Shown piece after piece: positions 11,553-48,217 of a stretch of DNA of 53,971 nt. Numbering within the stretch: position 1 is the stretch's first letter; every line of letters begins with the position of its first letter. The translations under genes were made by a program, and so were the position numbers. Origin of the DNA: Candidatus Chloroploca mongolica (GTDB lineage: Bacteria; Chloroflexota; Chloroflexia; Chloroflexales; Chloroflexaceae). The stretch covers positions 84,248 to 138,218 of the forward strand of contig NZ_SIJK02000011.1 of assembly GCF_004762035.2 (NCBI RefSeq). Reading direction: 5' to 3'. The notes under the pieces were generated by a model. The model was not told where the DNA came from. It worked only from the letters and a program-made list of their open reading frames with translations, and searched no databases.

Positions 11553-12848
11553 ATGACTTCACAACCCGTGCTTCTTCAAGCCTTTCTCGAACGTGTTCAC
11601 CGTCGCGACGTCAGCGTCGCCATTATCGGCCTCGGATATGTTGGTTTGCCCCTCGCCGTGGTGTTTGCCGAAGCGGGCTTGACCGTCGTCGGGATCGATC
11701 TTGATCCGCGCAAGGTAGAGTTGTTGAATGCTGGTGAGTCCTATATTGAGGATGTGCCTACATCAAGATTGGCCCCGCTGGTGCAGGCTGGCCGCCTGCG
11801 GGCGACTACCGATGTGGCAGTGCTGGCCGAGTGCGATGCGGTGAGCATCTGTGTGCCGACGCCGCTGCGCAAGACGGGTGATCCCGATATTTCGTATATT
11901 GTTGATGCGACCGAGCAGATTGCCCGCTATCTGCACCGCGGGATGCTGGTGGTGCTTGAGAGTACGACCTACCCTGGGACAACAAGTGAGGTGATTCTGC
12001 CCCGTTTGAGTGACCATCAGGATGGCCTGCGCGTCGGCGAGGATTTCTTCCTCTGCTTTTCGCCCGAGCGCGTCGATCCGGGTCGTACCGACTGGACAAC
12101 CAGGAATACGCCGAAGGTGATGGGCGGCCAGACGCCCGCCTGTCTTGAGGCAGGCCAGGCGCTCTATGGCGTTGCGATTGAGACGGTGGTGCTGGTCTCG
12201 TCGCCCGCCGCCGCCGAGATGACCAAGTTGCTCGAAAATACCTTCCGCTCGGTCAATATCGGTCTGGTCAACGAAGTGCTCTTGATGTGCGAAAAGCTTG
12301 GCCTTGATGCGTGGGAAGTGATCGAAGCCGCGGCAAGCAAGCCCTTCGGCTTTATGAAATTCACCCCCGGCCCTGGCCTCGGGGGGCACTGCATTCCCAT
12401 TGACCCCCTCTACCTTTCGTGGAAGCTGCGTACGCTTGATTACACTGCACGCTTTATTGAATTGGCAAGCGAAATCAATACCGGCATGCCGCGCTATTGG
12501 GTGCAAAAAGTGCAGGACGCGCTCAACGATGTCGGCAAAGCGCTCAAGGGGAGCAAGGTGCTGGTGGTTGGCATTGCCTACAAAAAAGATGTCAGCGACA
12601 TGCGCGAATCGCCCGCGCTCGACATCATCCACCTGCTGCAAGACAAAGGGGCCAGCGTCACCTACCACGACCCCTATGTGCCCGACGTTGACCACGACGG
12701 CATTACGATGACCAGCGTGCCCAACCTGCACGCAGCCCTCGCCGACGCCGACTGCGCCATCATCGTCACCGACCACAGCACCTACGACTGGCCAACGATC
12801 CACGCCACCGCCCGTGTCATCGTTGACACCCGCCGGACGCTGCGGTAA
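11553..12848 (+). CDS. Nucleotide-sugar dehydrogenase (UDP-GlcNAc 6-dehydrogenase, WbpA-like)
   Basis: A 431-residue UDP-glucose/GDP-mannose dehydrogenase family enzyme, oxidising C6 of a UDP-sugar to the uronic acid with two NAD+. The Rossmann motif IIGLGYVGLPLA lies at 24-35 and GIDLDPRKV follows it. The central-domain helix EMTKLLENTFR contains Lys225, and the catalytic thiol is Cys280 in PGPGLGGHCIPIDPLYLSWK. That last motif and SPERVDPG are typical of WbpA/WecC-type enzymes acting on N-acetylated sugars rather than UDP-glucose. It follows the NusG-like gene by 12 bases. Together with WecB (41127) it suggests a HexNAc uronic acid in the glycan. A hairpin repeat follows the stop. Confidence 0.92.
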   Translation: MTSQPVLLQAFLERVHRRDVSVAIIGLGYVGLPLAVVFAEAGLTVVGIDLDPRKVELLNAGESYIEDVPTSRLAPLVQAGRLRATTDVAVLAECDAVSICVPTPLRKTGDPDISYIVDATEQIARYLHRGMLVVLESTTYPGTTSEVILPRLSDHQDGLRVGEDFFLCFSPERVDPGRTDWTTRNTPKVMGGQTPACLEAGQALYGVAIETVVLVSSPAAAEMTKLLENTFRSVNIGLVNEVLLMCEKLGLDAWEVIEAAASKPFGFMKFTPGPGLGGHCIPIDPLYLSWKLRTLDYTARFIELASEINTGMPRYWVQKVQDALNDVGKALKGSKVLVVGIAYKKDVSDMRESPALDIIHLLQDKGASVTYHDPYVPDVDHDGITMTSVPNLHAALADADCAIIVTDHSTYDWPTIHATARVIVDTRRTLR

Positions 12849-22378: not shown

Positions 22379-23227
22379 TTGCACAACACACCAACAAAAC
22401 AAACCGAACACCTCCTCATCCTAGAACCAGGTCGAGCCGACAAAAACTACTGGCGCGATCTCTGGCGCTACCGCGAACTTTTCCTCATCCTCGCCTGGCG
22501 CGACGTCTCGGTACGCTATAAACAGACGATTATTGGTCTCGCCTGGGCCGTTATTCGTCCGTTTCTGACGATGATTGTCTTCACCATTATTTTTGGCCGT
22601 GTCGCCGGCTTGCCCAGTGATGGCAATGCCCCGTATGCCTTGATGGTTTTTGCCGCGATGTTACCCTGGACGCTCTTCTCTTCGGCGTTGAGCGAAGCCT
22701 CGAATAGCCTGATCGGCAATGCGAATTTAATTAGCAAGGTCTATTTCCCGCGCCTGATCATTCCAACGGCTACTGTGGTGACAGCCTTTATTGACTTTCT
22801 GATCAGCTTTGTTATACTCGTGGGTATGATGATCTGGTATCAGTATGCTCCGAGTTGGTCGATCGTGCTGTTGCCAGGTTTTATGCTGCTGGCGTTGCTG
22901 GCTAGTCTGGGGCCGGGTCTCTGGATTACAGCGCTCAATGTCAAGTATCGCGATTTTCGTTATATCATCCCCTTTGTCGTTCAGTTTGGGCTCTATGTGT
23001 CGCCAGTCGGTTTTAGCAGCAATGTGATCCCCGAGCAATGGCGGCTTGTCTATAGCCTGAACCCGATGGTTGGGGTCATTGACGGTTTTCGCTGGGCTAT
23101 TCTGGGGGCCGATAGCCCTCCCTACTGGCCTGGTTTTGCGCTCAGTCTTCTGGTCGTCGCCTTCTTCTTGTGGCTCGGCATTAGCCAGTTTCGCAAGATG
23201 GAGAAGAGCTTTGCGGATATGATTTAA
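22379..23227 (+). CDS. wzm: ABC-2 type polysaccharide export permease (Wzm-like)
   Basis: Membrane subunit of a polysaccharide/lipid-linked glycan exporter, 282 residues with about six membrane segments. The pre-TM helix reads DLWRYRELFLILAWRDVSVRYKQT, typical of Wzm/KpsM-type permeases, followed by GLAWAVIRPFLTMIVFTIIFGRVAGLPSDG. NPMVGVIDGFRWAI and the C-terminal YRDFRYIIPFVVQFGLYVSPVGF segment also match. The start is a TTG at 22379, placed by the usual ~30-residue distance to the RDVSVRYKQT motif; there is no better start. The ATPase gene begins 2 bases after the stop. It moves glycan across the cytoplasmic membrane. Confidence 0.93.
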   Translation: MHNTPTKQTEHLLILEPGRADKNYWRDLWRYRELFLILAWRDVSVRYKQTIIGLAWAVIRPFLTMIVFTIIFGRVAGLPSDGNAPYALMVFAAMLPWTLFSSALSEASNSLIGNANLISKVYFPRLIIPTATVVTAFIDFLISFVILVGMMIWYQYAPSWSIVLLPGFMLLALLASLGPGLWITALNVKYRDFRYIIPFVVQFGLYVSPVGFSSNVIPEQWRLVYSLNPMVGVIDGFRWAILGADSPPYWPGFALSLLVVAFFLWLGISQFRKMEKSFADMI

Positions 23228-23229
23228 CT

Positions 23230-24513
23230 ATGTCTGACATTGTGATCAAAGCCGAACAACTCGGCAAAAAATACATCATTGGTCATCAGCGAGAAAACGG
23301 ACGGTATACGGCGCTACGCGATGTGCTGATGCAGAATGCTCGTTCTGTCTGGAACAAGACCCGTGACCTGGTGCAAGGCAAGCCGATTGTGCAGGGTGAT
23401 ACGCTGGAGGAGGTCTGGGCGCTCAAGGATGTCAACTTCGAGATCCGGCGCGGCGAGGCCGTGGGCATCATTGGGCGCAACGGGGCGGGCAAGAGTACGC
23501 TGCTCAAGGTGCTGAGCCGCATCACCGAACCGAGCGCCGGACGGGTGTCGATCAGAGGGCGGGTGGCGAGCCTGCTCGAAGTGGGCACCGGCTTCCACCC
23601 CGAACTGACCGGACGCGAGAACATCTACCTCAACGGCGCCATTCTGGGCATGACCAGGCTCGAGATCAAGCGCAAGTTCGACGAGATCGTGGCCTTCGCC
23701 GAGGTAGAGAAGTTCCTGGACACGCCGGTGAAACGCTATTCCAGCGGCATGTACGTACGCCTGGCCTTTGCCGTCGCCGCACACCTGGAACCGGAGATTC
23801 TGGTAGTAGATGAAGTGCTTGCCGTAGGGGATTCGGCATTTCAGAAGAAATGTCTAGGCAAAATGGGGGATGTAGCACATGAAGGGCGGACTGTATTGTT
23901 TGTAAGTCACAATATGGTAGCAATCGAACAACTCTGCCAGAAGGCTATGGTTCTTCAGCAAGGTAAGGTTGCTGACTATGGAAGTGTTGAACAAGCACTA
24001 GGAATGTACCTGACTAGCGTAAGTGATCTCCAGAAGGTGAGTATTGCTGATAGAACAGACAGAAGAGGTAATCAGTTTCTTCGATTCACCAGGGTGGCTC
24101 TTTGCGATGCTGGTGGTAGCGAATTGGAACAAGTGCTTTCTGGGCAAGATGTTTATGTTCGCTTTTACTATGCGGCTTCAGAACAATTATGCGATGCGAG
24201 AGTACATGTGTCGTTGGCAATTGTTGATCGCGGTCGGATACTAATCAACCTGAATTCCTACAACAGTGGCTCTGCTGTTCTTGATGTGTACGAAAGAGGT
24301 TTTTTTGAATGTGTTTGGAAGAACTTCAATCTTACAGCAGGCTCATATGATTGCATTGCGTTCTGCTCTGTCAACGACGAGGTAGCCGACTGGGTCGATT
24401 CAGCATTTACAATCTTGGTGGAAAATGGCGATTTTTTTGGCCAGGGCGACTCCACACTTCATGGGATTGTTTTAGTGCCACATCGCTGGTATAGTCACCC
24501 CGATTTGTCGTGA
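23230..24513 (+). CDS. wzt: ABC transporter ATPase with C-terminal glycan-binding domain (Wzt-like)
   Basis: Nucleotide-binding subunit of the Wzm/Wzt exporter, 427 residues. Walker A GRNGAGKST is at 82-90, signature RYSSGMYVRLAFA near 169-181, Walker B LVVDE at 191-195, and the switch His in FVSHNM. Residues ~255-427 form an extra beta-rich domain, as in Wzt proteins that recognise the modified end of the exported chain. Base composition changes sharply near nt 23790-23830: upstream is GC-rich, downstream AT-rich with different codon use. The ATPase core therefore appears native and the recognition domain exchanged together with the downstream glycan genes. Confidence 0.93.
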   Translation: MSDIVIKAEQLGKKYIIGHQRENGRYTALRDVLMQNARSVWNKTRDLVQGKPIVQGDTLEEVWALKDVNFEIRRGEAVGIIGRNGAGKSTLLKVLSRITEPSAGRVSIRGRVASLLEVGTGFHPELTGRENIYLNGAILGMTRLEIKRKFDEIVAFAEVEKFLDTPVKRYSSGMYVRLAFAVAAHLEPEILVVDEVLAVGDSAFQKKCLGKMGDVAHEGRTVLFVSHNMVAIEQLCQKAMVLQQGKVADYGSVEQALGMYLTSVSDLQKVSIADRTDRRGNQFLRFTRVALCDAGGSELEQVLSGQDVYVRFYYAASEQLCDARVHVSLAIVDRGRILINLNSYNSGSAVLDVYERGFFECVWKNFNLTAGSYDCIAFCSVNDEVADWVDSAFTILVENGDFFGQGDSTLHGIVLVPHRWYSHPDLS

Positions 24514-31984: not shown

Positions 31985-32683
31985 TTGCGCAGGTGGAAAC
32001 AATGGTTTATCTATAAGCTGAAGGCATTTCAGTTACGGCTACTGATGAGTCGTTTATCCGTATTTCAGGTTAGGACAAGTTTTCATGGCACAGAATACGG
32101 TGGATGGACAATCTGTCCAGACGGTCTTACAGCATCTAGTCTGATTTATTCTTTTGGCGTTGGTGAAGATACATCTTTCGACCTGGAACTGATTGCGCAA
32201 TATGGCGTTGAGGTGCATGCCTTTGACCCTACTCCGAAATCGATTGCTTGGGTGCAGTCAAATTCATGGCCCGACCGTTTTCATTTTCATCCTATCGGTA
32301 TAGGCTCCAGTGATAGAATGGCTTTTTTCTTTCCCCCTGACGATCCCTCTCATGTTTCGCATTCGATACTTCCTCGTAGAAATGCAGCGAGTGCCCCTAC
32401 TCAGGTGCAATTGTTTCGGCTCAAAACAATCGCTGACATGCTTGGTCATCAGCAGATAGATCTGTTGAAAATGGATATTGAGGGAGCTGAATATGAGGTA
32501 ATCACTGATCTGCTCGATACGCACAATATCATAATTCGCCAGATATTGATCGAATTTCACCCTTTTTTTGAGGGTCTAACTTACAATGCCACGGCGAATT
32601 CAATCCGTCAACTCGAAAAAAGAGGGTATCGTTTGTTTAATATTTCCAATAGGGGAACTGAGTTTAGTTTCATCTACCTATGA
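31985..32683 (+). CDS. FkbM-family methyltransferase
   Basis: 232 residues from TTG 31985, chosen because TGGAGGGT (31970-31977) lies 7 bases upstream and nothing protein-like precedes it in frame. LIYSFGVGEDTSFDLELIAQYG is a divergent motif I, followed by VHAFDPTPKSIAWV, the FkbM motif IDLLKMDIEGAEYEVITDL and ILIEFHPF. It overlaps the next gene by 4 bases (ATGA). Confidence 0.83.
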   Translation: MRRWKQWFIYKLKAFQLRLLMSRLSVFQVRTSFHGTEYGGWTICPDGLTASSLIYSFGVGEDTSFDLELIAQYGVEVHAFDPTPKSIAWVQSNSWPDRFHFHPIGIGSSDRMAFFFPPDDPSHVSHSILPRRNAASAPTQVQLFRLKTIADMLGHQQIDLLKMDIEGAEYEVITDLLDTHNIIIRQILIEFHPFFEGLTYNATANSIRQLEKRGYRLFNISNRGTEFSFIYL

Positions 32684-33771
32684 TGGCCGTAAATTCACCC
32701 AAAATCACCTTCGGCATGATCGTGCTCAATGGCGAACCCTTTATTCGCTATAATCTACGCGCGCTCTATCCGTTTGCCCATCAGATCATCGTGGTCGAAG
32801 GCGCCGCACCGGCCGCTGCCAGCATTGCCACTCCCGATGGACACTCGGTGGATGGCACGATGCAGACGTTGCTGGACTTCAAAGCGCATGAGGATCCAGA
32901 AAACAAACTGATCGTTGTGACAGCCGAAGACGAGGGCCATCCCAACGGCTTCTGGCCGGGCGAGAAGCATGAACAGAGCCAGGCTTATGCAAAGCGGGCT
33001 ACCGGCAATTGGTTGTGGCAGGTGGATGTGGATGAGTTCTATCAGCCGCTGGATATGACCTGGATTATCGGCGAATTGTCAGGTAACCCGTCGATCTATG
33101 CAGTCTCCTTCAAGCAGATCCAATTCTGGGGAGGCCTAGACTATTATGCAGACGGATGGTATCTGCGCCACTATGGTGGCGAAGTGTTTCACCGTCTCTT
33201 TCGGTGGGACCCCGGTTATGTCTACGCAACGCATCGTCCGCCAACAGTCGTGAATGAAGATGGCGTAGACCTCCGGGAACTGGGCCACCTGCGGGCGCGA
33301 GATTTGGCGCGACGGAAGATATTTCTTTATCACTACTCGCTGGTTTTTCCACATCAAGTGAGTGGGAAAAGCGCCTACTATTCACAAGTAAGTTGGGGGC
33401 CATTTGACAGGATGAATGACTGGGCAACTGAGAATTATACCCAGTTGAAGCATCCTTATCGGGTGCATAATGTCTACCGATATCCAAGCTGGCTCGAACG
33501 GTATGCAGGCCCGCATCCGCCTCAGGTCATCGCAATGTGGCAAGACACCAGGAGCTCACAAGAACATAGCAATCTTGCAATCAGGCAAAACGATGACATC
33601 GAGAGATTACTGAATTCTGTTGGATATCGAGTGGGAAGGCAGTGCGTCAAATGGGCTGGTTTTGTGATCTGCAACGTTGAGGCAGCCGCAAGAGCGGTGT
33701 TTCGCCTGCTTCCAACCTCAGTGCAAGCTGCTCTCAAGCCGATCATTCTACGGCAAAGGGCTAGAGTGTGA
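32680..33771 (+). CDS. Glycosyltransferase family 2-like protein
   Basis: 363 residues. ITFGMIVLNGEPFIRYNLRAL is the N-terminal GT-A strand and loop. IIVVEGA takes the place of the DGGS segment. GNWLWQVDVDEFYQPLDM carries the metal-binding DxD. The middle has RLFRWDPGYVYATHRPPTV, typical of a small group of GT2-like proteins with unknown acceptors. Starts ATG 32680 or 32683, coupled to the upstream methyltransferase; it overlaps the next gene by 4 bases (GTGA). Confidence 0.78.
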   Translation: MMAVNSPKITFGMIVLNGEPFIRYNLRALYPFAHQIIVVEGAAPAAASIATPDGHSVDGTMQTLLDFKAHEDPENKLIVVTAEDEGHPNGFWPGEKHEQSQAYAKRATGNWLWQVDVDEFYQPLDMTWIIGELSGNPSIYAVSFKQIQFWGGLDYYADGWYLRHYGGEVFHRLFRWDPGYVYATHRPPTVVNEDGVDLRELGHLRARDLARRKIFLYHYSLVFPHQVSGKSAYYSQVSWGPFDRMNDWATENYTQLKHPYRVHNVYRYPSWLERYAGPHPPQVIAMWQDTRSSQEHSNLAIRQNDDIERLLNSVGYRVGRQCVKWAGFVICNVEAAARAVFRLLPTSVQAALKPIILRQRARV

Positions 33772-35093
33772 AGATCCTGCTGTTTAGCACTTACGATCGC
33801 GCTGGTGGAGCCGAAAAAGTGGCCTTTGACCTGTGCCGATCCTACTGTCAACGCGGACATGATGCGCGTCTTCTTGTGCGCTACAAACGCACGCAAGAGC
33901 CGTTTGTATTCGAGGTTGATCCTTACCGTGATACGACTCCCTGGGCAGGGATGTGTCGGCATTTGGAAAAGTCGGTGCGCAGACAATCCGCTTTCCGCGG
34001 CCAGTATCGCCTGATCGATATGCTGCGCCGCCTTGCCCTGCCGCAGCGATTGTGGGATCGTTGGCGTGGCACCGAAGATTTCAACTATCCGTTTACCTGG
34101 CATCTGTTGGATGCAGACAATGATTGGCAGCCTGATGTCATTCATGCCCATAATTTGCACGGCGACTATTTCGACCTGGGTGCCCTATCAATGTTGAGCC
34201 AGCGTCTGCCGGTTGTCTGGACATTGCACGACACCTGGGCAATCACCGGGCACTGTGGTTATTTCATCGACTGTGAGCGTTGGCGCACTGGCTGCGGTGC
34301 GTGCCCCGACCTGGGCCGACCACCAGCCATCCAACGCGACCGGACAGCCGCCAACTGGCAACAGAAACAGACTATCTATCGCAACAGCCGGTTGGCCATA
34401 TCGACGCCGAGCCGCTGGCTGATGAACTATGTGGAACAGTCTATGCTGCTGCCGTGGCAGGCGCGTGTCATCCCGAACGGCGTGGATCTGTCCATCTATC
34501 ATCCTGGCGACCGCGCCCAGGCACGGGCTGAATGTGGCATTGCCGCAGATGCATTTGTCGTCGTGTTCAGCGCGTTTAGTGGAGCTAATACCAACCCCTA
34601 CAAGGACTTCACCACGGTTCGCACAGCTGTGCAATTGCTTAGGGGCAGTGATGTCTCTTCTCGGTTGCAGTTGATATGCATCGGCGGCCAGACACAGAAC
34701 ACAGATGATCCAGGAGTTGTCTACACAGGCTATCTCACCGATCCCAACGCTGTGGCGCGCTACTATCGCTGCGCCGACGTACTCTTGCACGCTGCCAACG
34801 CCGAAAACTTCCCACTCGTAGTGCTTGAAGCAATGGCTTGCGGTGCCACCGTGGTTGCAACTAGCGTGGGAGGGATTCCCGAGCAGATTATCGAAGGCGA
34901 GACCGGGTTTTTAATTGCTAGGGGTGATAGTGTCATGCTTGCGAAGCATGTGCATTGGCTCATGGCCCATCCAGATAGATGTAAACACATGGGTACAATG
35001 GCTGCCGTCTATGCTGAGCATTCGTTTAGCCTGAAAGCTCAGGCTGAGTCTTTTGTCAATTGGTTTGCAAGTTTTATGTACAGTAATTGTTGA
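33768..35093 (+). CDS. Family 4 glycosyltransferase
   Basis: 441 residues, GTG start overlapping the previous stop. GT-B fold: KILLFSTYDRAGGAEKVAFDLCR with the Gly-Gly-Ala loop, DVIHAHNLHGDYFDL, LHDTWAITGHCGYF (seen in colanic-acid-type GT4 enzymes), VIPNGVDLSIYHP, and the catalytic EX7E-like segment AENFPLVVLEAMACGATVVATSVGGIPE. A Cys-rich insert (IDCERWRTGCGACPDL) is also typical of this subgroup. Donor probably a nucleotide sugar made by the cluster. Confidence 0.9.
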   Translation: MKILLFSTYDRAGGAEKVAFDLCRSYCQRGHDARLLVRYKRTQEPFVFEVDPYRDTTPWAGMCRHLEKSVRRQSAFRGQYRLIDMLRRLALPQRLWDRWRGTEDFNYPFTWHLLDADNDWQPDVIHAHNLHGDYFDLGALSMLSQRLPVVWTLHDTWAITGHCGYFIDCERWRTGCGACPDLGRPPAIQRDRTAANWQQKQTIYRNSRLAISTPSRWLMNYVEQSMLLPWQARVIPNGVDLSIYHPGDRAQARAECGIAADAFVVVFSAFSGANTNPYKDFTTVRTAVQLLRGSDVSSRLQLICIGGQTQNTDDPGVVYTGYLTDPNAVARYYRCADVLLHAANAENFPLVVLEAMACGATVVATSVGGIPEQIIEGETGFLIARGDSVMLAKHVHWLMAHPDRCKHMGTMAAVYAEHSFSLKAQAESFVNWFASFMYSNC

Positions 35094-35116
35094 TCATTCT
35101 GAAAAAAGAGGTTTGC

Positions 35117-36253
35117 ATGTCGATTAGAACCGAAAATTTCAGTCAACTACACGAGCGTAGCTATTATATATCGCTGCGTGATGTGTTTTATCATGCGTTT
35201 TTATTCTATTCTGGTTTTATTTTGTTTGTCCTGCCTACAGGTACTGGGATTCGACATGCATTATTTATGATTCCTTTCTTTGCTGGTTTTTTAGGTTTAT
35301 TATTACTAAAACATAAAATATCCCTTTTTGATTTCTTACTTTCGGGGATTTTGTTAATCAGTAGCTTCTTGACAGGGCATTACGATACTATTACTGATGC
35401 GATTGTCTTTTCGATGCTTTTACTGTTTGTTTCATTGGCTTACCAAAGAAGAGAGCTCTCGATACATTTTAACTATGGCCTGATTTTATTGTTCTGCTGG
35501 CTTTTTTTCTTTTCATTAGTTTATCAACTGATTCAGAACTTTGGAACGTTTGGCTACTGGGAATATACATCCAAACTTTATGTTGGTGATACAAATTTTT
35601 CGGGTTTATATATGTTGCTGTTTCTTTTTTTTAGTGTTAGATGTAAATTCTGGCCTGGGATTGTATTGTCATTGATTTCGGTATTGTTATTTTTAAGCAG
35701 GACTTATTTTTTAGCTCTTACTGTTTTTTTTCTTTTGATGTACTTTAGAGACTTTCTAGCCCCTCTTGTTAGAAGACTAAACTTTTTTGTGATAATCATG
35801 ACTCTTAATATATTACTGTTAGTCTACGCTTTTTTTGTTGTAACTCAGATGGGTGTTTCTGATTTTAGTGTTAGGGGTTTTGAACGCTTATTTTCTTTTA
35901 ATGATCGATCAGCCCTTGTTCGGCTTGAATTTAACTACATTCTTTTTTACCGCTTTATCAATGATCCAATTTTTTTGTTTGTTGGGGAAGGACAGCGATT
36001 TGGTGAGATCGCACGTGGTTTGCTTGGGAACGTACCTCATAATACTCTGTTTAATTCAGTTGGCACTAATGGGTTATTTTTTTCGGTGATGTATCTTTGG
36101 GTTCTGTCTGTTATTTTCAAGAAGATTGACTGGGTGAGTAATTTTGCTTATATCATCCCGGTGATTTTTTACTCCTTATTTTTGCATGGCATTTTTAATC
36201 AAGGATTTGCAATCTTTCTGGTTCTCATATTGATGATACCCTCTAAAAAATAA
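35117..36253 (+). CDS. wzy: Wzy-like O-antigen polymerase/ligase family membrane protein
   Basis: About 378 residues, roughly ten hydrophobic segments and a large loop (VTQMGVSDFSVRGFERLFSFNDRSALVRLEF...GEGQRF...NVPHNTLFNSVG) as in Wzy/WaaL-type proteins. The PHNTLFNSVGTNGLF part resembles the conserved PH-N motif of O-antigen polymerases. Start ATG 35117, with AGAGG upstream, rather than the upstream in-frame TTG at 35087. The gene is the most AT-rich in the window, markedly unlike its neighbours, which suggests recent transfer. A polymerase is unexpected beside an ABC exporter. Confidence 0.75.
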   Translation: MSIRTENFSQLHERSYYISLRDVFYHAFLFYSGFILFVLPTGTGIRHALFMIPFFAGFLGLLLLKHKISLFDFLLSGILLISSFLTGHYDTITDAIVFSMLLLFVSLAYQRRELSIHFNYGLILLFCWLFFFSLVYQLIQNFGTFGYWEYTSKLYVGDTNFSGLYMLLFLFFSVRCKFWPGIVLSLISVLLFLSRTYFLALTVFFLLMYFRDFLAPLVRRLNFFVIIMTLNILLLVYAFFVVTQMGVSDFSVRGFERLFSFNDRSALVRLEFNYILFYRFINDPIFLFVGEGQRFGEIARGLLGNVPHNTLFNSVGTNGLFFSVMYLWVLSVIFKKIDWVSNFAYIIPVIFYSLFLHGIFNQGFAIFLVLILMIPSKK

Positions 36254-38885: not shown

Positions 38886-41024
38886 ATGCAGCAAATCATT
38901 CAAAACCTCAAGACCGGCGAAACAGAACTACTCAACACCCCCATCCCAACCTGCGCGACTGGTCAACTTCTCATCGCCACCCGCCGCAGTCTCATCTCCG
39001 CCGGTACCGAACGCATGCTGGTCGAGTTCGGCCAGGGCAATCTGATCGCCAAGGCGCGCTCGCAGCCCGATAAGGTGCGCCAGGTGCTTGATAAGATCAA
39101 GACTGACGGGTTGCTGCCTACTTTGGAGGCTGTCTTTGCTCGCCTCGATCAGCCGCTGCCGCTGGGCTACTGCAATGCAGGCGTGGTGTTGGAGGTGGGC
39201 CAGGGCGTGACCGGCTTTGCGGTCGGCGACCGCGTGGTCTCCAATGGACCCCACGCCGAGGTCGTAGCTGTGCCGCAGAACCTCTGCGCCCGCATTCCTG
39301 ATGGTGTGAGCGATGACGCCGCAGCGTTCACGGTGTTGGCTGCTGTGGGCTTGCAGGGCATTCGCCTGGTCAACCCCACCCTGGGCGAGCGCGTGGTCGT
39401 CGTGGGCCTGGGCTTGTTGGGCTTGATGACAGTGCAGATGCTGCGCGCCAATGGCTGTCAGGTGTTGGGCATTGATCTTGATGGTCAGAAGTGCGCTGTG
39501 GCACGACAGCTTGGCGCTGAGGCCGTTGATCTGAGCAGCGGTGCTGATCCGGTGGCATCAGGCATGGCTTTTTCCGAGGGGCGCGGTGTTGATGCTGTCT
39601 TGATCACCGCCTCGACGAAAAGCAGTGAACCTGTTCACCAGGCCGCGCAGATGAGCCGCAAGCGTGGGCGCATTGTGCTGGTTGGTGTGACTGGGTTGGA
39701 ACTCTCGCGGGCTGATTTTTATGAGAAAGAGTTGACGTTTCAGGTCTCTTGTTCGTATGGGCCAGGACGCTACGACGAACTCTACGAGCAAAAGGGTCAA
39801 GATTACCCCTTCGGCTTTGTGCGCTGGACCGAACAGCGCAACTTCGAGGCTGTGCTCGATCTGATGGCGAGTGGGCGCATGGATGCAACTTCCCTTATCT
39901 CGCGCCGTGTCCCGCTGGTTCAGGCTCCTGCCGTCTATCAGGAACTTGTCACGGATCGTTCGTTGCTTGGGGTCTTGCTAACCTATCCCGATGTGCAACC
40001 TAGTCTGGAACAAGTCGTTCAGGTGCAACCTCGCATTGCGAAAGCACCTGCGGCCACATCTACCCCCCAGCCTCAAGTTGCTGTAGGCGTCATTGGAGCC
40101 GGCAATTTTGCCTCGCTCGTCTTGATCCCGGCACTTGTCAAGACTGGTGCTCGTCTTGAGGCGATTGCAACCACGACTGGTCGTGAGGCGGCGATTGCGG
40201 CACGTAAATTTGGCTTTGCCCAGGCTGTCTCTGATTACCGCAAGATCCTCGAGCATCCAGCGATCAATACGGTCTTCATTCTGACTCGCCATAATACGCA
40301 TGCCCGCTTGATCGTTGAGGCCCTGGCGGCAGGCAAACATGTCTTTGTCGAAAAACCTCTGGCGCTTACCCAGGATGAGCTCGATCAGATCAATGCTGCG
40401 CGGCAACAAGCACCCAATCTTCAGCTACTGGTCGGTTTTAACCGTCGGTTTGCTCCGCTTGCAGTAGAGATGCGCAAGCTCCTTGGTGCTCGTACCGAGC
40501 CACTCACCATGATTTATACCGTCAATGCAGGCGCAATCCCGGCGCAACACTGGACGCAAGATCCTCTGGTGGGGGGTGGGCGCATTATTGGTGAAGGCTG
40601 TCATTTCATCGATCTACTCCGTTTTCTTGCGGGCCATCCCATTGTCAACGTCAGTGCGCACGCCATCGGTGTCGCGCCTGGCCTGGCGGTGCGTGAAGAC
40701 AAGATGACTATCACCCTCACCTTTGCCGACGGTTCCCTGGGCACCGTGCATTACTTTGCCAATGGCAGCAAGCAGTTTCCCAAAGAGCGGCTAGAGGTCT
40801 TCAGTGCTGGGCGCATCCTGGCCCTCGACAATTTCCAGCGGCTGCACAGCTATGGCTGGGCAGGCTTCAAGGGCCAGCGGCTGTGGCGGCAGGATAAAGG
40901 ACATGGCGCCGAAGTGGCTGCATTTGTTGAACGAGTTGCACAAGGTGGCTCGTGGCTCATCCCCTGGGAAGAACTGGCAGATGTCACACAAGCGACGTTT
41001 GACGCCGTGGAACAGGTAAGCTGA
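38886..41024 (+). CDS. Bi-domain oxidoreductase: zinc-type alcohol dehydrogenase fused to Gfo/Idh/MocA domain
   Basis: 712 residues. Residues ~1-365 match the medium-chain dehydrogenase/reductase fold (PLGYCNAGVVLEVGQGVTGFAVGDRVV, ERVVVVGLGLLGLMTVQML, GVDAVLITASTKS). After a Pro/Ala linker, residues ~395-712 match a Gfo/Idh/MocA oxidoreductase: AVGVIGAGNFASLVLIPAL Rossmann, HVFVEKPLALTQDEL with the catalytic Lys-Pro, and GGGRIIGEGCHFIDLLRFLAG. The fusion is familiar from glycan clusters carrying heparinase and WecB-like genes, yet its reaction is not established. It may act on a nucleotide sugar or nascent chain by oxidation and reduction. It begins the GC-rich conserved end of the locus. Confidence 0.9.
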   Translation: MQQIIQNLKTGETELLNTPIPTCATGQLLIATRRSLISAGTERMLVEFGQGNLIAKARSQPDKVRQVLDKIKTDGLLPTLEAVFARLDQPLPLGYCNAGVVLEVGQGVTGFAVGDRVVSNGPHAEVVAVPQNLCARIPDGVSDDAAAFTVLAAVGLQGIRLVNPTLGERVVVVGLGLLGLMTVQMLRANGCQVLGIDLDGQKCAVARQLGAEAVDLSSGADPVASGMAFSEGRGVDAVLITASTKSSEPVHQAAQMSRKRGRIVLVGVTGLELSRADFYEKELTFQVSCSYGPGRYDELYEQKGQDYPFGFVRWTEQRNFEAVLDLMASGRMDATSLISRRVPLVQAPAVYQELVTDRSLLGVLLTYPDVQPSLEQVVQVQPRIAKAPAATSTPQPQVAVGVIGAGNFASLVLIPALVKTGARLEAIATTTGREAAIAARKFGFAQAVSDYRKILEHPAINTVFILTRHNTHARLIVEALAAGKHVFVEKPLALTQDELDQINAARQQAPNLQLLVGFNRRFAPLAVEMRKLLGARTEPLTMIYTVNAGAIPAQHWTQDPLVGGGRIIGEGCHFIDLLRFLAGHPIVNVSAHAIGVAPGLAVREDKMTITLTFADGSLGTVHYFANGSKQFPKERLEVFSAGRILALDNFQRLHSYGWAGFKGQRLWRQDKGHGAEVAAFVERVAQGGSWLIPWEELADVTQATFDAVEQVS

Positions 41025-41115
41025 GTAGAGTGTGCCAACCTCAGTCGGCCTAAGCCGACTGAAGTTGGCACTACAAGTGTCACACTCAAAGGCTCTTTCT
41101 GAAACCATACCTAAG
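41025..41115 (+). repeat. 90-bp hairpin element, copy 2
   Basis: Diverged hairpin (CCAACCTCAGTCGGCCTAAG...) followed by the tail TCACACTCAAAGGCTCTTTC...CTAAG. The end CTAAGGA lies 9-10 bases before the GTG of wecB, so it supplies that gene's Shine-Dalgarno. Confidence 0.8.
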
Positions 41116-41126: not shown

Positions 41127-42233
41127 GTGAAGATCCTGCATGTTGTCGGCGCTCGTCCCAACTTTATGAAAGTCGCACCAGTGTTACATGCACTGAGTCA
41201 GTATGATACCGTCAGGCAGATCATTGTTCACACTGGACAGCATTACGACGTCAACATGTCTGACATCTTTTTCCAGCAACTTGGCATTCCTGCGCCAGAC
41301 GTGAACCTGGAGATAGGTTCGGCGAGTCATGCTCAGCAGACCGCCCAGATCATGGCCCGCTTCGAGCCGGTCGTGCTTGAGCAAAAGCCTGACATGGTGC
41401 TCGTCTACGGTGACGTAAACTCCACGGTTGCGGCGACCCTCGTCTGTGCCAAATTGCTCATACCGGTAGCTCACGTTGAGGCTGGCCTGCGTTCAGGAGA
41501 TCGCACGATGCCAGAAGAGATCAATCGGTTGGTGACCGATCAGCTTGCCGATCTTCTGTTTACGCCGTCGGGCGATGGCGATCAGAATCTATTGCGTGAG
41601 GGCATTGCTGCCGAGAAGATTCACTGTGTTGGCAATGTCATGATCGATACGCTGGTACGGTTGCAGCCAGCCGTGGCCGACTCTGCGGTGCTTGACGAGT
41701 TACACCTGGTGCCCGGCGGTTATGCTGTTTTGACCCTGCACCGTCCTTCCAATGTGGACGACGATCGTGTGCTTGGTGCGCTGCTCGGGGCCATTCTTGC
41801 GTTGGCAGAACGTCTCCCCATCGTTTTTCCTGTCCATCCCCGCACCCGTCACCGTCTTGAGCGCCTTGGCCTGGGGTTACCTCCCGAGGGCTTGCGCCTG
41901 ATCGATCCGCTGGGCTACCTTGATTTTCAGCGTCTGACGAGCCAGGCGCGGATCGTGCTGACCGACTCGGGTGGCATCCAGGAGGAGACAAGTTACCTGG
42001 GCATTCCTTGCTTGACGCTGCGAACCAATACCGAACGCCCGGTCACCGTAGCGATGGGCACCAACATGCTCGTTGGCAACGATCTCGATCGCTTGCGCAC
42101 CCGCTTCCATGCCATTCTTGATGGCGACGACAGTTGGGATCAGCGTCCTCCTGGTGGAATCCCGCTCTGGGATGGGCACGCTGCCGAACGTATCGCTAAC
42201 ATCCTGTGTAAGACAAAGTTCGTAGGCACTTGA
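41127..42233 (+). CDS. wecB: UDP-N-acetylglucosamine 2-epimerase (non-hydrolysing)
   Basis: 368 residues, GTG start with AAGGA upstream. Interconverts UDP-GlcNAc and UDP-ManNAc, or a diacetamido-uronic analogue as WbpI does. Signatures: KILHVVGARPNFMKVAPVL, VHTGQHYDVNMSDIFF, VYGDVNSTVAATLVC, HVEAGLRSGDRTMPEEINR (catalytic region), HRPSNVDDDR, and RIVLTDSGGIQEETSYLGIPCLTLRTNTERPVT. Family length is normal. With the WbpA-like dehydrogenase at 11553 it implies a ManNAc-type or ManNAc(3NAc)A residue. Hairpin elements flank it on both sides. Confidence 0.96.
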   Translation: MKILHVVGARPNFMKVAPVLHALSQYDTVRQIIVHTGQHYDVNMSDIFFQQLGIPAPDVNLEIGSASHAQQTAQIMARFEPVVLEQKPDMVLVYGDVNSTVAATLVCAKLLIPVAHVEAGLRSGDRTMPEEINRLVTDQLADLLFTPSGDGDQNLLREGIAAEKIHCVGNVMIDTLVRLQPAVADSAVLDELHLVPGGYAVLTLHRPSNVDDDRVLGALLGAILALAERLPIVFPVHPRTRHRLERLGLGLPPEGLRLIDPLGYLDFQRLTSQARIVLTDSGGIQEETSYLGIPCLTLRTNTERPVTVAMGTNMLVGNDLDRLRTRFHAILDGDDSWDQRPPGGIPLWDGHAAERIANILCKTKFVGT

Positions 42234-42251
42234 CCGTTTGCGCCCTACGTC

Positions 42252-42341
42252 GTGGTAGTGCCGACTTTAGTCGGCCTCAGCCGACTGAAGTCGGCACTAC
42301 CACGGTCATGCTCAAAAGCTCTTTCTGAAACCTTGTCTAAG
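42252..42341 (+). repeat. 90-bp hairpin element, copy 3
   Basis: Hairpin GTGGTAGTGCCGACTTTAGT... with near-perfect arms, then the tail TCATGCTCAAAAGCTCTTTC...CTTGTCTAAG, ending 10 bases before the next ATG with CTAAGGCC as the only Shine-Dalgarno-like sequence. Confidence 0.85.
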
Positions 42342-42351: not shown

Positions 42352-45300
42352 ATGCATACACTCCTCAAAGCCAGGCAGATCGTCTTGCTGCTACGGCATC
42401 TCGGGTTTGCCTGGCTTTTCTTTCGTCTTCAATATGCCCTACGCCAACGTAGTGGTTGGTTTGCCCGGCGCTGGCCTGTGACAACATGGGACCAGCGCCC
42501 TTTTGCGACGTTTCTGATCAATGACGATCTCGCTGATCCGTTCATCTACAAGCAATACCGTGCAAGCCAGGCTCCACAATTCTTCTTCGATCCTGCCCAG
42601 CGCCTGGCCTACCAGGCCTTGCTAGGCCAGTGGGATGATCATGGAGAAGAGACGCCACAGTACCTTGTCAAACAGTTGCGCCAGGGACAAGGGCACTTTT
42701 TTGAGCACCACTGGTGGCAGACAGGCTTTCCCCCAAACTGGCATCGCAATGCGTTGACTGGTGAAGCGACGCCACCGGATACGCACTGGTCAAAGCTCGG
42801 TGACTTTGGGCATGGTGATATCAAAGTTATCTGGGAACCAGGCCGCTTTGGATGGGCGTATGCGCTGGTGCGGGCCTACTGGCGTACTGGCGATGAAAGC
42901 TATGCCGAGACCTTCTGGCAACTGCTAGAGCATTGGTGCAATCATAATCAACCCTATCAAGGTGTCCATTGGCGTTGCGGTCAAGAGACAACTTTTCGCG
43001 TCATGGCCTGGTGTTTTGCGCTCTATGGATTTGCGTTCGCTTCATCCTCGACCCCAGCAAGAATCCAGCAACTGGCTCAGATGATCGCACTCTCGGCTGA
43101 ACGCATTGCCTCTAATCTGAGCTATGCCCTGAGCCAGCGCAACAATCATGGTGTCAGTGAAGGCGTCGGGTTGTGGACGATTGGCTTGCTCTTCCCCGAG
43201 TTTCGCGAAGCGGCAACATGGCGCGAGCGTGGCCGCCAGGTGCTCGAAGAGTTGGCTGAGCAATTGATTGCCGATGATGGCGCATTCAGCCAGCATTCAA
43301 TGAATTATCACCGGGTCATGTTGCACGACTATCTGTGGGCCGTGCGGTTGGGTGAATGCAATCACCAGCGATTCAGCCCCACATTGCACGAGCGTGTGCG
43401 CACGTCAGCACGATTTCTCCACGCATTTCTCCAACCTGCAACTGGCAGCGTGCCCCGTTATGGGGCCAATGATGGCGCGCTTGTCTTGCCTCTGACAAAC
43501 TGCGATCACCGCGATTTTCGCCCGCTCATCCAGTCGGCGCTGTATCTGCTTGAAGGTGTGCGAACCCTGGCTCCCGGTGCCTGGGACGAAGAACTTCTCT
43601 GGTTGAGTGGGCCTGCTGCGCTCGAAGCTCCCAAAGAATGTGCCAAGCCACCGTCGCTTCAAGCAGACGCAAGTGGTTATTATCTCATCCGCGATGCAGC
43701 GAGTTCCATCTTTATCCGCTGTGGCTCATTCAGGCAACGGCCTGGACATGCCGATCTCCTGCACCTTGATCTCTGGTATCAAGGCCAGAATATCGCGCTT
43801 GACCCTGGCACATATAGCTATAATGCGCCGCCTCCGTGGGACGATCCCTTGTCGCGCACCCTCCACCACAATAGCGTAACTGTTGATGGCCTTGATCAAA
43901 TGGATCGCGTCAGCCGTTTTTTGTGGTTACCCTGGATCAGCGGTAACGTGCGTCAACAGCGATCATCCAGGCAGAGCGAGCTGACCTACTGGGAGGGTGA
44001 GCATAGTGGCTATCAGCGTTTGGCAAGCCCTGTATCTCATCGCCGAGCTATTGTTGGGCTTGGATCAGGAACCTGGCTGGTTCTTGACGATCTCACTGGT
44101 GCAGCTCGTCATACCTATCGGTTACACTGGCTTTTTGATGATCTCCCTTATCTGAGCGATCTCAACGCGGGTCGCCTGGAACTCTCAACTTCGAACGGCA
44201 GTTATATCGTGCAATGGGGTGCGTTTGGGGCCGAGGTAGCGAGTAGTCTGGTGCGGGCAGGGATTGATGATGCACGCGGCTGGCAGGCACCATATTACCT
44301 TGAACGAACGCCGGCCGTCTCACTGGCCGCCGTCACAGATGGAAGTAGGGTTCGTTACTGGACACTATTTTCTGCTTTACCCTTGACCATTCGTACGAAC
44401 TCACACGGTTTGCATCTGAGTGGACCCTCACTTGAAGCGGATTGCATCTTGAGCGAAGATCGTACAAGGACTATTGTCGATCGAATTGTATTGCGAAGAC
44501 CTGTACAGGATACACTACTACCTATGTCTATCAAAGTTCTGTTGCTTCACCAGGCATTTGCCACACCAGCGCAGGCAGGCGGTACGCGCCATTATGAATT
44601 CGCACAGCATCTATTGGCGCAGCAACATGCATGTACGGTTGTGACAAGCAATCTTAGCTATCGCACTGGTGCGCAACTGAGTGCGTATTCGGGGTTGGTC
44701 ACTGAAGAAGAGGTTGAAGGCCTTCGCATCTTACGGGCCTATACCCTCCCCGTCCTTCATCGTAGCTTTGTATGGCGTGTTGTGGCTTTTTTCAGTTTCA
44801 TGTTTACATCCGTCATCGCAAGTTTGCGTGCTGACAAGGTCGATCTTGTTATTGGCACAACGCCCCCAATCTTCCAGTCTGTCTCAGCATGGTTAGTTGC
44901 GGTAATGCGTCGTCGCCCCTTTCTCCTTGAAGTACGTGATCTATGGCCAGAGTTTGCCATTGATATAGGCGTACTCAAAAACCCTGTGCTAATCAAGCTG
45001 TCGCGATTACTTGAACGGTTTCTTTATCGTGTTGCGGATCATATTTTAGTGAATTCCCCCGCCTACCGTGATTATCTGATCGCCAGGGGTATATCATCAG
45101 ATAAAGTCACCCTCATCGCTAACGGGGTAGCACCTGATATGTTTGATCCCGATCGGCGAGGCGAGGCGTTCCGTGCCCAGTGGGGTTTAGATGGGAAATT
45201 TGTTGCAATGTATACCGGGGCGCTCGGTCTAGCCAATGATATCCCTACCATTGTAGCTGCAGCTGAATTATTACAGAGGCATCAATCCATCCAAATTGTG

Positions 45301-45762
45301 CTGGTTGGTGATGGCAAAGAACGCACTGCACTAGAAGCGCAGGTTTTGCAACGAGGGCTCACCAATGTACTCTTTGTTGGGGCACAACCGAAAGCAGCGA
45401 TGAAGGATGTGATCGCAGCAGCCGATGTATGCATTGCTACCTTGCAAAACATCCCAATGTTTACCACCACATACCCAAACAAAGTGTTTGATTATATGGC
45501 CGCAGGGCGTCCCACGATTCTTGCCATTGATGGCGTCATTCGTCAGGTCATTGATGCCGCCCAAGGGGGAGTGTTTGTTCCACCGGGCGACCCTGCATCG
45601 CTTGCGGTGGCTGTGCTTGCATTGTCAACCAATCCAGAAACTGGTGCTATCATGGGGCATAATGCCCGTCGTTATGTTACGCAACATTTCAACCGGGCTG
45701 ATCAGGCAAAAGAGTTCGAACGTCTTTTGATCTCACTGTCCAATCGGCAGAATATAGACTAA
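42352..45762 (+). CDS. Fusion of heparinase II/III-like protein and family 4 glycosyltransferase
   Basis: 1136 residues. Residues 1-~720: heparinase II/III-like. An alpha/alpha toroid includes FRVMAWCFALYGFAFA and LSQRNNHGVSEGVGLWTIG. The C-terminal beta-sheet part has GHADLLHLDLWYQGQNIALDPGTYSY and LHHNSVTVDGLDQMDR, carrying the His/Tyr residues expected for a lyase. From Met725 a complete GT-B enzyme starts (SIKVLLLHQAFATPAQAGGTRHYEF) of the WbuB/WcaI type: FLLEVRDLWPEFAIDIG, LIANGVAPDMFDP, FTTTYPNKVFDYMAAGRPTILAIDG. No stop or ribosome-binding site separates them. Usually they are two genes. A chain-trimming or editing enzyme joined to an elongating one is an attractive but unproven idea. 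Confidence 0.9.
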   Translation: MHTLLKARQIVLLLRHLGFAWLFFRLQYALRQRSGWFARRWPVTTWDQRPFATFLINDDLADPFIYKQYRASQAPQFFFDPAQRLAYQALLGQWDDHGEETPQYLVKQLRQGQGHFFEHHWWQTGFPPNWHRNALTGEATPPDTHWSKLGDFGHGDIKVIWEPGRFGWAYALVRAYWRTGDESYAETFWQLLEHWCNHNQPYQGVHWRCGQETTFRVMAWCFALYGFAFASSSTPARIQQLAQMIALSAERIASNLSYALSQRNNHGVSEGVGLWTIGLLFPEFREAATWRERGRQVLEELAEQLIADDGAFSQHSMNYHRVMLHDYLWAVRLGECNHQRFSPTLHERVRTSARFLHAFLQPATGSVPRYGANDGALVLPLTNCDHRDFRPLIQSALYLLEGVRTLAPGAWDEELLWLSGPAALEAPKECAKPPSLQADASGYYLIRDAASSIFIRCGSFRQRPGHADLLHLDLWYQGQNIALDPGTYSYNAPPPWDDPLSRTLHHNSVTVDGLDQMDRVSRFLWLPWISGNVRQQRSSRQSELTYWEGEHSGYQRLASPVSHRRAIVGLGSGTWLVLDDLTGAARHTYRLHWLFDDLPYLSDLNAGRLELSTSNGSYIVQWGAFGAEVASSLVRAGIDDARGWQAPYYLERTPAVSLAAVTDGSRVRYWTLFSALPLTIRTNSHGLHLSGPSLEADCILSEDRTRTIVDRIVLRRPVQDTLLPMSIKVLLLHQAFATPAQAGGTRHYEFAQHLLAQQHACTVVTSNLSYRTGAQLSAYSGLVTEEEVEGLRILRAYTLPVLHRSFVWRVVAFFSFMFTSVIASLRADKVDLVIGTTPPIFQSVSAWLVAVMRRRPFLLEVRDLWPEFAIDIGVLKNPVLIKLSRLLERFLYRVADHILVNSPAYRDYLIARGISSDKVTLIANGVAPDMFDPDRRGEAFRAQWGLDGKFVAMYTGALGLANDIPTIVAAAELLQRHQSIQIVLVGDGKERTALEAQVLQRGLTNVLFVGAQPKAAMKDVIAAADVCIATLQNIPMFTTTYPNKVFDYMAAGRPTILAIDGVIRQVIDAAQGGVFVPPGDPASLAVAVLALSTNPETGAIMGHNARRYVTQHFNRADQAKEFERLLISLSNRQNID

Positions 45763-45770: not shown

Positions 45771-46442
45771 ATGAATTCGTTAAATTCCTTTTACCGCCAC
45801 ACAGGCAAACGCATCTTCGACCTTCTGGTCGCCATCCCGGTGCTGCTTGTTTTCAGCCCGCTGCTCGCGGTGCTGGCTCTACTCGTGCGCGTCAAACTGG
45901 GCACCCCCGTCTTCTTCCGCCAGCAGCGCCCTGGTCGGCACGGCAAGCCGTTCACCATGGTCAAGTTTCGCACGATGACCGATGCGCGTGATGCCAAAGG
46001 CAACCTATTGCCTGACGCGGAACGGTTGACGCGGTTTGGCAAGTTTTTGCGCAGCAGTAGCCTCGATGAACTGCCAGAGTTGTGGAATGTGCTCAAGGGT
46101 GAGATGAGTCTAGTGGGACCACGTCCGTTGCGCATAGAATACCTTCCTCTTTACTCAACTCATCAAGCTCGACGTCATGAGGTTCGCCCGGGTATTACTG
46201 GATGGGCACAGGTGAATGGTCGCAATGCACTTTCTTGGGAAGAACGATTTGATCTAGATGTGTGGTATGTAAATCAGGCATCGTTTTATCTTGATCTCAA
46301 AATTATCGTTATGACGATTGTTGCGATTCTCAGACGTGATGGGATTAGTGCGTCTGGACATGCTACTATGTATCGATTTACTGGTTCCAAAGATACAAAA
46401 GAAGCATCACCGGAACAACTGCAAAAAGGCGATACTGCGTGA
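45771..46442 (+). CDS. pglC: Polyprenyl-phosphate sugar-phosphate transferase (PglC-like initiating enzyme)
   Basis: 223 residues, small monotopic phosphoglycosyl transferase that loads a sugar phosphate on undecaprenyl phosphate. N-terminal re-entrant hydrophobic helix (KRIFDLLVAIPVLLVFSPLLAVLALLV), RQQRPGRHGKPFTMVKFRTM, catalytic Asp-Glu in SSLDELPELWNVLKGEMSLVGPRP, RPGITGWAQVNGRN. The lack of a large N-terminal TM domain makes it PglC-like rather than WcaJ/WbaP-like. It overlaps the acetyltransferase gene by 4 bases and heads a PglC-PglD-PglE order. Confidence 0.94.
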   Translation: MNSLNSFYRHTGKRIFDLLVAIPVLLVFSPLLAVLALLVRVKLGTPVFFRQQRPGRHGKPFTMVKFRTMTDARDAKGNLLPDAERLTRFGKFLRSSSLDELPELWNVLKGEMSLVGPRPLRIEYLPLYSTHQARRHEVRPGITGWAQVNGRNALSWEERFDLDVWYVNQASFYLDLKIIVMTIVAILRRDGISASGHATMYRFTGSKDTKEASPEQLQKGDTA

Positions 46443-47071
46443 AATTGCTCTTGGTTGGTGCTGGTACATATGGTCAGGTATATCTTAGCTATTTGCGAGA
46501 GCAAGCATTATTTGAGGTTGTTGGTTTTTTGGACGACAATCCTATGCTTAATGGTAAGCTTATTGAGGGTGTACCTGTTGTAGGCAATACTGACGATCTT
46601 TTGCACTATCGGTGTCAGGGCATTGAAGGCATTATTGCTCCTATTGGTAATAATAAAGCAAGAGTTCGTATACTTGAAAAGGCTCAAGAATCAGGCCTAT
46701 TAACCCCGAATTTTATTCATCCTACAGCTATTATTGCGAAAGAGGTTGTCATTGGTCAAGGGGTGTATATTCTTCCCGGCTCTATCATTATGCCATATGT
46801 CCGGATTCACGACTATGTTATGATCAGTATGAGTACTAATGTCGCTCATCATGTTGAATTGTGTTCTGGCTGTTTTTTGTCCACTGGTGTAAATGTGGGA
46901 GCTGGAATTACTATTAATAAAAATGTGTTTGTAGGGATGGGGGCAAACATTATGACAGGGGTCAAGTCTATTGGCGCTGATGCAATTATTGGCGCTGGTG
47001 CAGTTGTTATCCGAGATGTTCCCGAGTCTGTAAAAGTTGCAGGTGTACCTGCTAAACCTCTTGACTCTTAG
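46439..47071 (+). CDS. pglD: PglD-like sugar O/N-acyltransferase
   Basis: 210 residues, GTG start in a GTGA overlap. An N-terminal Rossmann-like substrate domain (KLLLVGAGTYGQVYLSYLRE...VVGFLDDNP) is followed by a left-handed beta-helix of hexapeptide repeats (IHPTAIIAKEVVIGQG, NVGAGITINKNVFVGMGANI). It ends VIRDVPESVKVAGVPAKPL, typical of NeuD/PglD. In PglD the catalytic His is in the helix; HHVELCSG is the likely site here. It acetylates the 4-amino group of UDP-4-amino sugars. AT-rich compared with pglE, suggesting independent ancestry. Confidence 0.92.
   Translation: MKLLLVGAGTYGQVYLSYLREQALFEVVGFLDDNPMLNGKLIEGVPVVGNTDDLLHYRCQGIEGIIAPIGNNKARVRILEKAQESGLLTPNFIHPTAIIAKEVVIGQGVYILPGSIIMPYVRIHDYVMISMSTNVAHHVELCSGCFLSTGVNVGAGITINKNVFVGMGANIMTGVKSIGADAIIGAGAVVIRDVPESVKVAGVPAKPLDS

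Positions 47072-47095: not shown

Positions 47096-48217
<1,122 letters not shown>

Follow-up and report, generated by a model that had tools for sequence, protein, structure and literature searches.

A heparinase III-like module fused without a linker to a GT4 glycosyltransferase in Candidatus Chloroploca mongolica, and its separate-gene counterparts in relatives

Cutting of sugar chains during their own synthesis is already known, for example from the periplasmic enzyme AlgL. As far as the accessible parts of the papers go, operons for polysaccharide synthesis in Pseudomonas encode two enzymes that cleave chains, the alginate lyase AlgL (PMC8829089) and PslG (PMC9075953), and AlgL clears periplasmic alginate (PMC8829089). 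A similar setting is found in the DNA analyzed here, 53,971 nucleotides of Candidatus Chloroploca mongolica (contig NZ_SIJK02000011.1, positions 84,248 to 138,218; the whole stretch is called the window), in which a heparinase-like module (HEP) and a glycosyltransferase module of the GT4 type (GT4) share one reading frame. AlgL differs in being periplasmic and PslG in being a glycosyl hydrolase, and fusion of either to a glycosyltransferase is undescribed in the accessible parts of the literature searched. The fold of heparinase III (HepC) of polysaccharide lyase (PL) family PL12 (4fnv, 4mmh, and 5jmd) matches most of HEP (VIA-align Z of 24.6 to 27.0), with the active-site Asn and Tyr aligned; in contrast to HepC, HEP, which is about 17 percent identical to it, falls far under the NCBIfam cut-offs, shows no signal peptide, and belongs to a synthesis operon in which GT4 is either its fusion partner or its neighbor. 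Human dermatan sulfate epimerase 1 (DS-epi1; 6hzn), an epimerase that acts in synthesis, also has its overall fold in common with HEP but is a eukaryotic secretory enzyme with 10 percent identity in the structural alignment. The GT4 half has the GT-B fold in common with MshA and PglA (8dqd). PglA acts after PglC, and the window GT4 adjoins PglC-, PglD-, and PglE-like genes; unlike PglA, to which it is 16 percent identical, it is fused to HEP. Finally, relatives with separate genes encode the same two proteins, mostly in the same order and with common neighbors, but with a stop between the genes.

A sequence-only reading of the window had described a heparinase-like enzyme joined to a WbuB-like GT4 in one 1136-residue frame, and the frame is found at exactly these boundaries:

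42352..45762, + strand: fused open reading frame HEP-GT4, 1136 amino acids (aa), single frame without internal stop.
42352..44523, + strand: HEP module, residues 1-724 (Pfam); predicted heparinase-III-like alpha-toroid plus beta-sandwich, signal peptide not seen.
44524..45762, + strand: GT4 module, residues 725-1136 (Pfam); predicted GT-B fold like MshA and PglA.
44524..44526, + strand: in-frame ATG (residue 725) at the junction, occupying the place of the HEP stop codon of the relative L039.

The frame runs from ATG to stop with zero internal stops, and the same stop-free frame was recovered in the source genome assembly (G000, contig 22). Both modules are recognized by Pfam above gathering, with Hepar_II_III_N at residues 158-370 (PF16889, 77.6 versus 22 bits) and Hepar_II_III_C at 433-596 (PF07940, 105.3 versus 24 bits), followed by GT4-type domains at 745-929 and 939-1107 (PF13692, PF00534, PF13579, and PF13439, all within 745-1107). 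The label "WbuB-like" proved loose, as WcaI is the best NCBIfam family for the GT4 half and its cut-offs are not reached (144.7 versus 276 and 56.2 versus 800 bits). There is no linker: the HEP end ...DTLLP runs directly into the glycosyltransferase sequence MSIKVLLLHQ. AlphaFold2 models the whole chain as two well-folded domains (mean predicted local distance difference test [pLDDT], 92.5) with a boundary at about residues 723-727 and a dip past the junction (pLDDT of 83 at 721-730 and 77 at 731-750). HEP folded alone reached a pLDDT of 94.6 and a predicted template modeling score (pTM) of 0.94, and its final strand ends at residue 722; hence, both modules look complete in the models. The GT4 half superimposes on 3c4q (MshA) with a VIA-align Z of 40.1 (root mean square deviation [rmsd], 2.5; 373 aligned) and on PglA 8dqd with a Z of 36.1 (rmsd, 2.8; 354 aligned).

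The fusion is unique among the loci examined. A contig scan yielded 501 related stretches, of which the best 80 were kept; together with 37 loci from whole-genome scans, this gave 117 loci. Both modules are present in 84 of the 117, in a sample that favors loci matching both halves. Among these 84, the window alone is fused, 69 have the two genes side by side in the window order, separated by a stop, and 14 have them more distant or reversed. Separate genes in relatives were one of the two observations that the sequence-only reading, which had asked whether relatives carry fused or adjacent genes, named as counting against it. Since L009 and L042 are one contig, there are 68 distinct adjacent pairs, which overlap in 18 cases and are otherwise separated by 0-30 nt (29 pairs), 31-100 nt (17 pairs), or >100 nt (4 pairs), so that 47 of the 68 overlap or lie at most 30 nt apart. 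Whole-genome scans listed no further full-length match free of stops in the 158 genomes covered for the class, in 400 genomes of the phylum (a set that overlaps the class set and includes the source genome), in 392 genomes of the phylum of L046, or in 297 genomes of the phylum of L044; the three phylum scans scored only the top two candidates of each genome, and apart from the regions fetched, genomes were judged from the listed matches alone. Eight long or joined frames were fetched, and none of them is a HEP-GT4 fusion. Seven had been listed in a phylum scan either as "open frames" of 1061-1252 aa or as joined matches interrupted by stops, and separate genes were found in 7/7 cases; the other, a 1208-aa frame at the end of a contig from the phylum of L046, is an N-terminal extension that is rich in GC and low in complexity, and the oxidoreductase gene BDOR (described below) lies there in another frame. 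The same fusion was thus found in no second lineage (1/84 loci; none further among the scan matches listed). In a quick GT4 tree, the window stands among separate-gene rows of mixed phyla, inside no starred group. The fusion looks like a single-lineage, one-off event, whereas HEP and GT4 are widely found as partners.

A fusion seen in a single genome, with 83 other two-module loci unfused, could be an assembly or sequencing artefact that hides genes separate in the cell. The second observation named by the sequence-only reading, a missed stop near 44520, has no support in the sequence. All three frames are free of stops between 44453 and 44594, and there is no run of at least 4 equal bases at 44490-44545; hence, one missed base cannot restore a normal gene end, a single indel cannot recreate the short-overlap stop of the relatives, and a simple missed stop as an indel error is unlikely and was rejected. 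Furthermore, the protein alignment is continuous across both sides of the junction. An artefact, which would then have to be a larger error such as an assembly error that destroyed a stop, is improbable in our view. The HEP C terminus in the window aligns with the relatives to their natural end, ahead of the glycosyltransferase start. In the nearest genome of the same family (L009/L042), the HEP stop TAG lies 2 bases before the glycosyltransferase ATG in a different frame. In L039, HEP and GT4 lie in the same frame, and the codon count from a shared Asp to a shared His-Gln equals that of the window; its stop TAA is opposite the window ATG of Met725, and its start ATG is opposite the window ATC of Ile727. 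Judged from this alignment, an L039-like arrangement could be one route by which the fusion arose. The ATG at 44524 also bears on what is made from the frame. It lies near the natural glycosyltransferase start with an AGGA 13 nt upstream, and gene overlaps in relatives suggest coupled translation, all of which would fit a fused frame from which a free GT4 is made as well; on the other side, a spacing of 13 nt is long for a ribosome site and the stop for re-initiation is gone, which leaves additional free GT4 a rather unlikely product.

The relationship of HEP to polysaccharide lyases was seen by sequence and by fold. In a single-sequence search, PL12 heparinase III proteins were the only structural relatives among the matches listed, and a 42-row profile (the window plus 41 of 76 extracted relatives) found PL12 heparinase III at an E value of 1e-36, with alginate lyases and exo-heparinase next, weakly. 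The HepC equivalog cut-offs (NCBIfam NF045572/NF045573) were not reached (54.9 versus 600 and 45.2 versus 700 bits). Foldseek with the fused model ranked HepC/heparinase III first (E value of about 1e-26), and the next matches of the HEP half were PL39, PL15, PL33, and PL17 lyases, with human DS-epi1 at rank 27. The VIA-align rows for the fused model all came from the glycosyltransferase half, and HEP was therefore folded and searched separately; a mixed alignment of HEP-only and glycosyltransferase-only rows was misaligned (HEP identities of about 15-28 percent) and was left out of folding. With HEP alone, the alpha-toroid plus beta-sandwich fold was found in 4fnv (Z of 27.0; rmsd, 3.7; 576 aligned), Alg17c (Z of 25.9; rmsd, 4.5; 563 aligned), and DS-epi1 6hzn (Z of 25.6; rmsd, 3.8; 571 aligned), where rows within 1 Z are treated as tied.

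The lyase-like active site is largely conserved. N265, H266, Y319, D468, D484, Y490, and H506 are invariant in 77 of 77 HEP rows, and E270, R321, and N507 are kept in 76 of 77. The codons of three putative catalytic positions are as follows:

43144..43149, + strand: N265-H266, conserved in 77/77 and 42/42 rows; N265 stands opposite the Asn that is catalytic in PL12 heparinase III.
43306..43308, + strand: Y319, conserved in 77/77 and 42/42 rows; stands opposite the Tyr that is catalytic in PL12 heparinase III.
43747..43749, + strand: H466, possible second catalytic base/acid by tentative placing; the 42 rows have His (28), Gln (13), or Asp (1) here.

In heparinase III, according to the accessible part of the paper, Tyr294 and His424 serve as base/acid and Asn240 as neutralizer (PMC12088678). 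N265 and Y319 of HEP are opposite heparinase III chain positions 216 and 270, at a constant offset of 24 from the published Asn240 and Tyr294. The heparinase III His is opposite P464, two residues from H466, in the profile alignment with 4mmi, and a lyase His is opposite H466 itself in that with 3afl. L041, L044, L054, and ten others have Gln at the position of H466, which may mean that the family is divided in its chemistry. From these comparisons of sequence and fold, chemistry at a uronate C5 is likely for HEP.

The sequence-only reading had called this half chain cleaving. Cutting is not established: since the fold fits the human dermatan sulfate C5-epimerase nearly as well in the models, HEP may modify rather than cut. 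HEP could be a biosynthetic, DS-epi1-like uronate C5-epimerase that acts on a lipid-linked oligosaccharide straight after GT4 and thus builds without any cutting. DS-epi1 scores only 1.4 Z under the top lyase row, the tyrosines Y319 and Y490 are invariant, and HEP is located amid sugar-building genes. Moreover, the accessible part of PMC8006597 reports that heparinase II shares the catalytic residues of DS-epi1 and that minute changes in the active site may convert a lyase to an epimerase. However, a fold shared with a C5-epimerase shows no function, PL12 lyases are nearest by both sequence and fold, the neutralizer is Asn as in heparinase III, and no bacterial epimerase of the HEP fold was found among the structure matches listed or in the literature searched. 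We regard such an epimerase as possible, though on the doubtful side.

As the sequence-only reading had stated, no signal peptide is seen. The N-terminal 70 residues of the window protein peak at a 19-residue hydropathy of 1.23, without a signal peptide or membrane segment, and an N-terminal 19-residue stretch with a hydropathy of at least 1.6 occurs in 0 of 77 HEP rows (with script-chosen starts, and with some rows truncated at the 5' end). GT4 enzymes of this kind act on the cytoplasmic side. We infer from the sequences that HEP works in the cytoplasm or at the membrane surface.

The window is a polysaccharide locus with a NusG/RfaH-like regulator, a nucleotide-sugar dehydrogenase, a Wzz/tyrosine kinase, a GDP-mannose dehydratase, a Wzm/Wzt-like exporter, methyltransferases, and transferases, followed in order by BDOR, WecB, HEP-GT4, a polyprenyl-phosphate sugar-1-phosphate transferase (PGT), PglD, and PglE. 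The genes that matter for the comparison are as follows:

11553..12848, + strand: nucleotide-sugar dehydrogenase, possible uronate source (TIGR03026, 446.6 versus 189.8 bits).
22379..24513, + strand: Wzm/Wzt-like polysaccharide ATP-binding cassette (ABC) exporter, two genes (PF01061; PF00005 plus PF14524).
38886..41024, + strand: BDOR, a zinc alcohol dehydrogenase domain fused to a Gfo/Idh/MocA oxidoreductase (Pfam; synteny).
41127..42233, + strand: WecB, UDP-GlcNAc 2-epimerase (TIGR00236, 342.8 bits versus a cut-off of 210).
45771..46442, + strand: PGT of the PglC/WcaJ type, an initiating enzyme (TIGR03025, 260.2 bits, below the cut-off of 295.6).
46439..47071, + strand: PglD/NeuD-type sugar acetyltransferase (TIGR03570, 189.9 bits versus a cut-off of 160.8).
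47096..48217, + strand: DegT/PglE/LegC-type sugar aminotransferase (PF01041, 353 bits; TIGR04181, 389.4, below the cut-off of 420).

The product of 11553..12848 scores under the cut-offs of the UDP-ManNAc and UDP-Glc dehydrogenase models. An RfaH-like NusG paralogue at 11007-11540 (80 bits; RfaH cut-off, 144.5) lies near the locus head and is perhaps an operon antiterminator. FkbM-type methyltransferase genes start at 26306, 28242, 31083, and 31850 (window 26306-32683), two of which overlap at 31850-31967, and the long frames 27068-28255, 32680-33771, and 35087-36253 have no Pfam match at an E value of 0.001. Between wecB and HEP, at 42250-42305, lies a near-perfect palindrome (hairpin, -54.8 kcal/mol; z, -11) with copies at about 41032-41094 and 13155-13223; by its sequence, this dispersed repeat, with 82 genome matches, many counted on both strands, is a repetitive extragenic palindrome (REP)-like element.

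By record title, the groups with separate HEP and GT4 genes include Chloroflexota, Planctomycetota, Thermodesulfobacteriota, and Verrucomicrobiota among others, and as the genes are neighbors in several phyla, HEP and GT4 are probably functionally linked. Further partners were counted in the fetched flanks of about 6 kb. The commonest is BDOR, present in 45 of 78 loci with both modules. Of the 75 that have a usable HEP frame, 44 have BDOR upstream of HEP and on its strand, either adjoining (14), with WecB between (16), or with a larger gap (14); in the remaining loci, the flank is too short (7) or there is no BDOR (24). PGT is present in 28 of the 78, and BDOR, WecB, HEP, GT4, and PGT occur together in 17. 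A PglC-type PGT lies nearby in 29 of 80 loci, and in 12 other loci of the 80, a WecA/MraY-type transferase, unrelated to the PglC type, lies between GT4 and HEP. That the HEP/GT4 pair is accompanied by initiating enzymes of two unrelated kinds suggests that HEP works on polyprenyl-linked intermediates. The loci with WecA/MraY in between (L095, L097-L099, L101, L105-L107, L111, L112, L116, and L117) form a second cassette type, and 5 of these 12 have a PAP2 phosphatase match. ABC export was considered as a general setting and rejected: the window Wzt is matched in the flanks of 1 of 78 relatives with both modules, so that a cytoplasmic full-length polymer is not shown as general. Searches of mostly open journals for heparinase-like genes in synthesis clusters gave no paper on a unit of HEP, GT4, and BDOR among the matches listed (in one case 30 of 329), and the word "heparinase" is absent from the main texts, as far as accessible, of two papers on wbuB homologues (PMC3283707 and PMC4241560).

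Our explanation, to which we give even chances, is a lineage-specific, linkerless fusion of adjacent, co-translated synthesis genes, with HEP as an active cytoplasmic uronate-acting lyase or C5-epimerase. Two neighboring, translationally coupled genes of a capsule or exopolysaccharide operon would have fused recently without a linker. The GT4 half would add an early sugar to a polyprenyl-linked primer provided by the neighboring PGT, PglD, and PglE enzymes, a role suggested by the gene context and the PglA-like fold. In the HEP half, Tyr319 would act together with a second residue, Asn265 serving as charge neutralizer, to remove the C5 proton from a uronic acid of the lipid-linked glycan on which GT4 works. 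HEP would then either trim away uronate-containing intermediates that are unwanted or too long, an AlgL-like housekeeping in the cytoplasm, or epimerize the uronate. Clipping is conceivable but falls somewhat short of an even chance, epimerization or another C5-proton reaction is a more tentative option, and the same low expectation applies to HEP doing anything else. We infer from the sequence that the cell actually makes the fused product and that HEP is active in it, on a uronate substrate and in the cytoplasm; the benefit of the fusion may be that two enzymes of one pathway are held at a 1:1 ratio.

The sequence-only reading had gone further and proposed that a lyase tethered to a transferase proofreads or edits the nascent glycan or removes stalled chains. 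HEP is intracellular as judged by sequence, has kept its active-site residues, and is linked to GT4 and often to transferases that initiate on a polyprenyl carrier, and for chain-cleaving enzymes in synthesis operons, AlgL (PMC8829089) and PslG (PMC9075953) set a precedent, as far as the accessible parts of these papers go. However, these are other enzyme types, and AlgL is periplasmic; tethering is missing in the 83 other two-module loci, and selectivity for faulty chains is not shown by any result. A function read from the fusion itself finds no backing in relatives, since those examined have separate genes, and we consider proofreading of this kind possible but rather unlikely. More speculative still, and in our opinion improbable, BDOR, HEP, and GT4 might form an undescribed, redox-assisted glycan-editing unit of surface-polysaccharide synthesis. 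BDOR would oxidize and later re-reduce a sugar of the polyprenyl-linked intermediate, HEP would exploit the acidified C-H to epimerize or eliminate, with no uronic acid required, and GT4 would extend the product; the window genome would then tether two of the steps in one chain.

Several observations weigh against the explanation that we prefer, a linkerless fusion with a uronate-acting HEP. The fusion is carried by one genome only, and as the in-frame ATG persists at the junction, a separate GT4 could still be produced. The structure prediction that the sequence-only reading had proposed for the interface yielded the two well-folded domains but no firm interface, as the pTM of the fused model is 0.76 and the relative domain placement is ill-defined. 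The possibly catalytic H466 is replaced by Gln in 13 of 42 rows, including close relatives, and standard lyase chemistry may not apply. As to the partnership, 39 of 80 loci have neither kind of initiating transferase in the fetched flanks, 2 of 80 (L103 and L110) contain GT4 but lack any HEP match, and G199, G348, and G485 have their listed HEP and glycosyltransferase matches on different contigs. Finally, the nucleotide-sugar dehydrogenase of the window is matched in the flanks of only 1 of 78 loci with both modules; since the flanks span about 6 kb and the search was for this dehydrogenase type alone, this scarcity says little about a uronate substrate.

In sum, a probably intracellular relative of lyases is paired in several phyla with a glycosyltransferase and often with an initiating transferase. 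If our explanation holds true, glycan editing or remodeling would be possible on the lipid carrier itself. The natural fusion in Candidatus Chloroploca mongolica points to the partner transferase of HEP and gives one protein to test.

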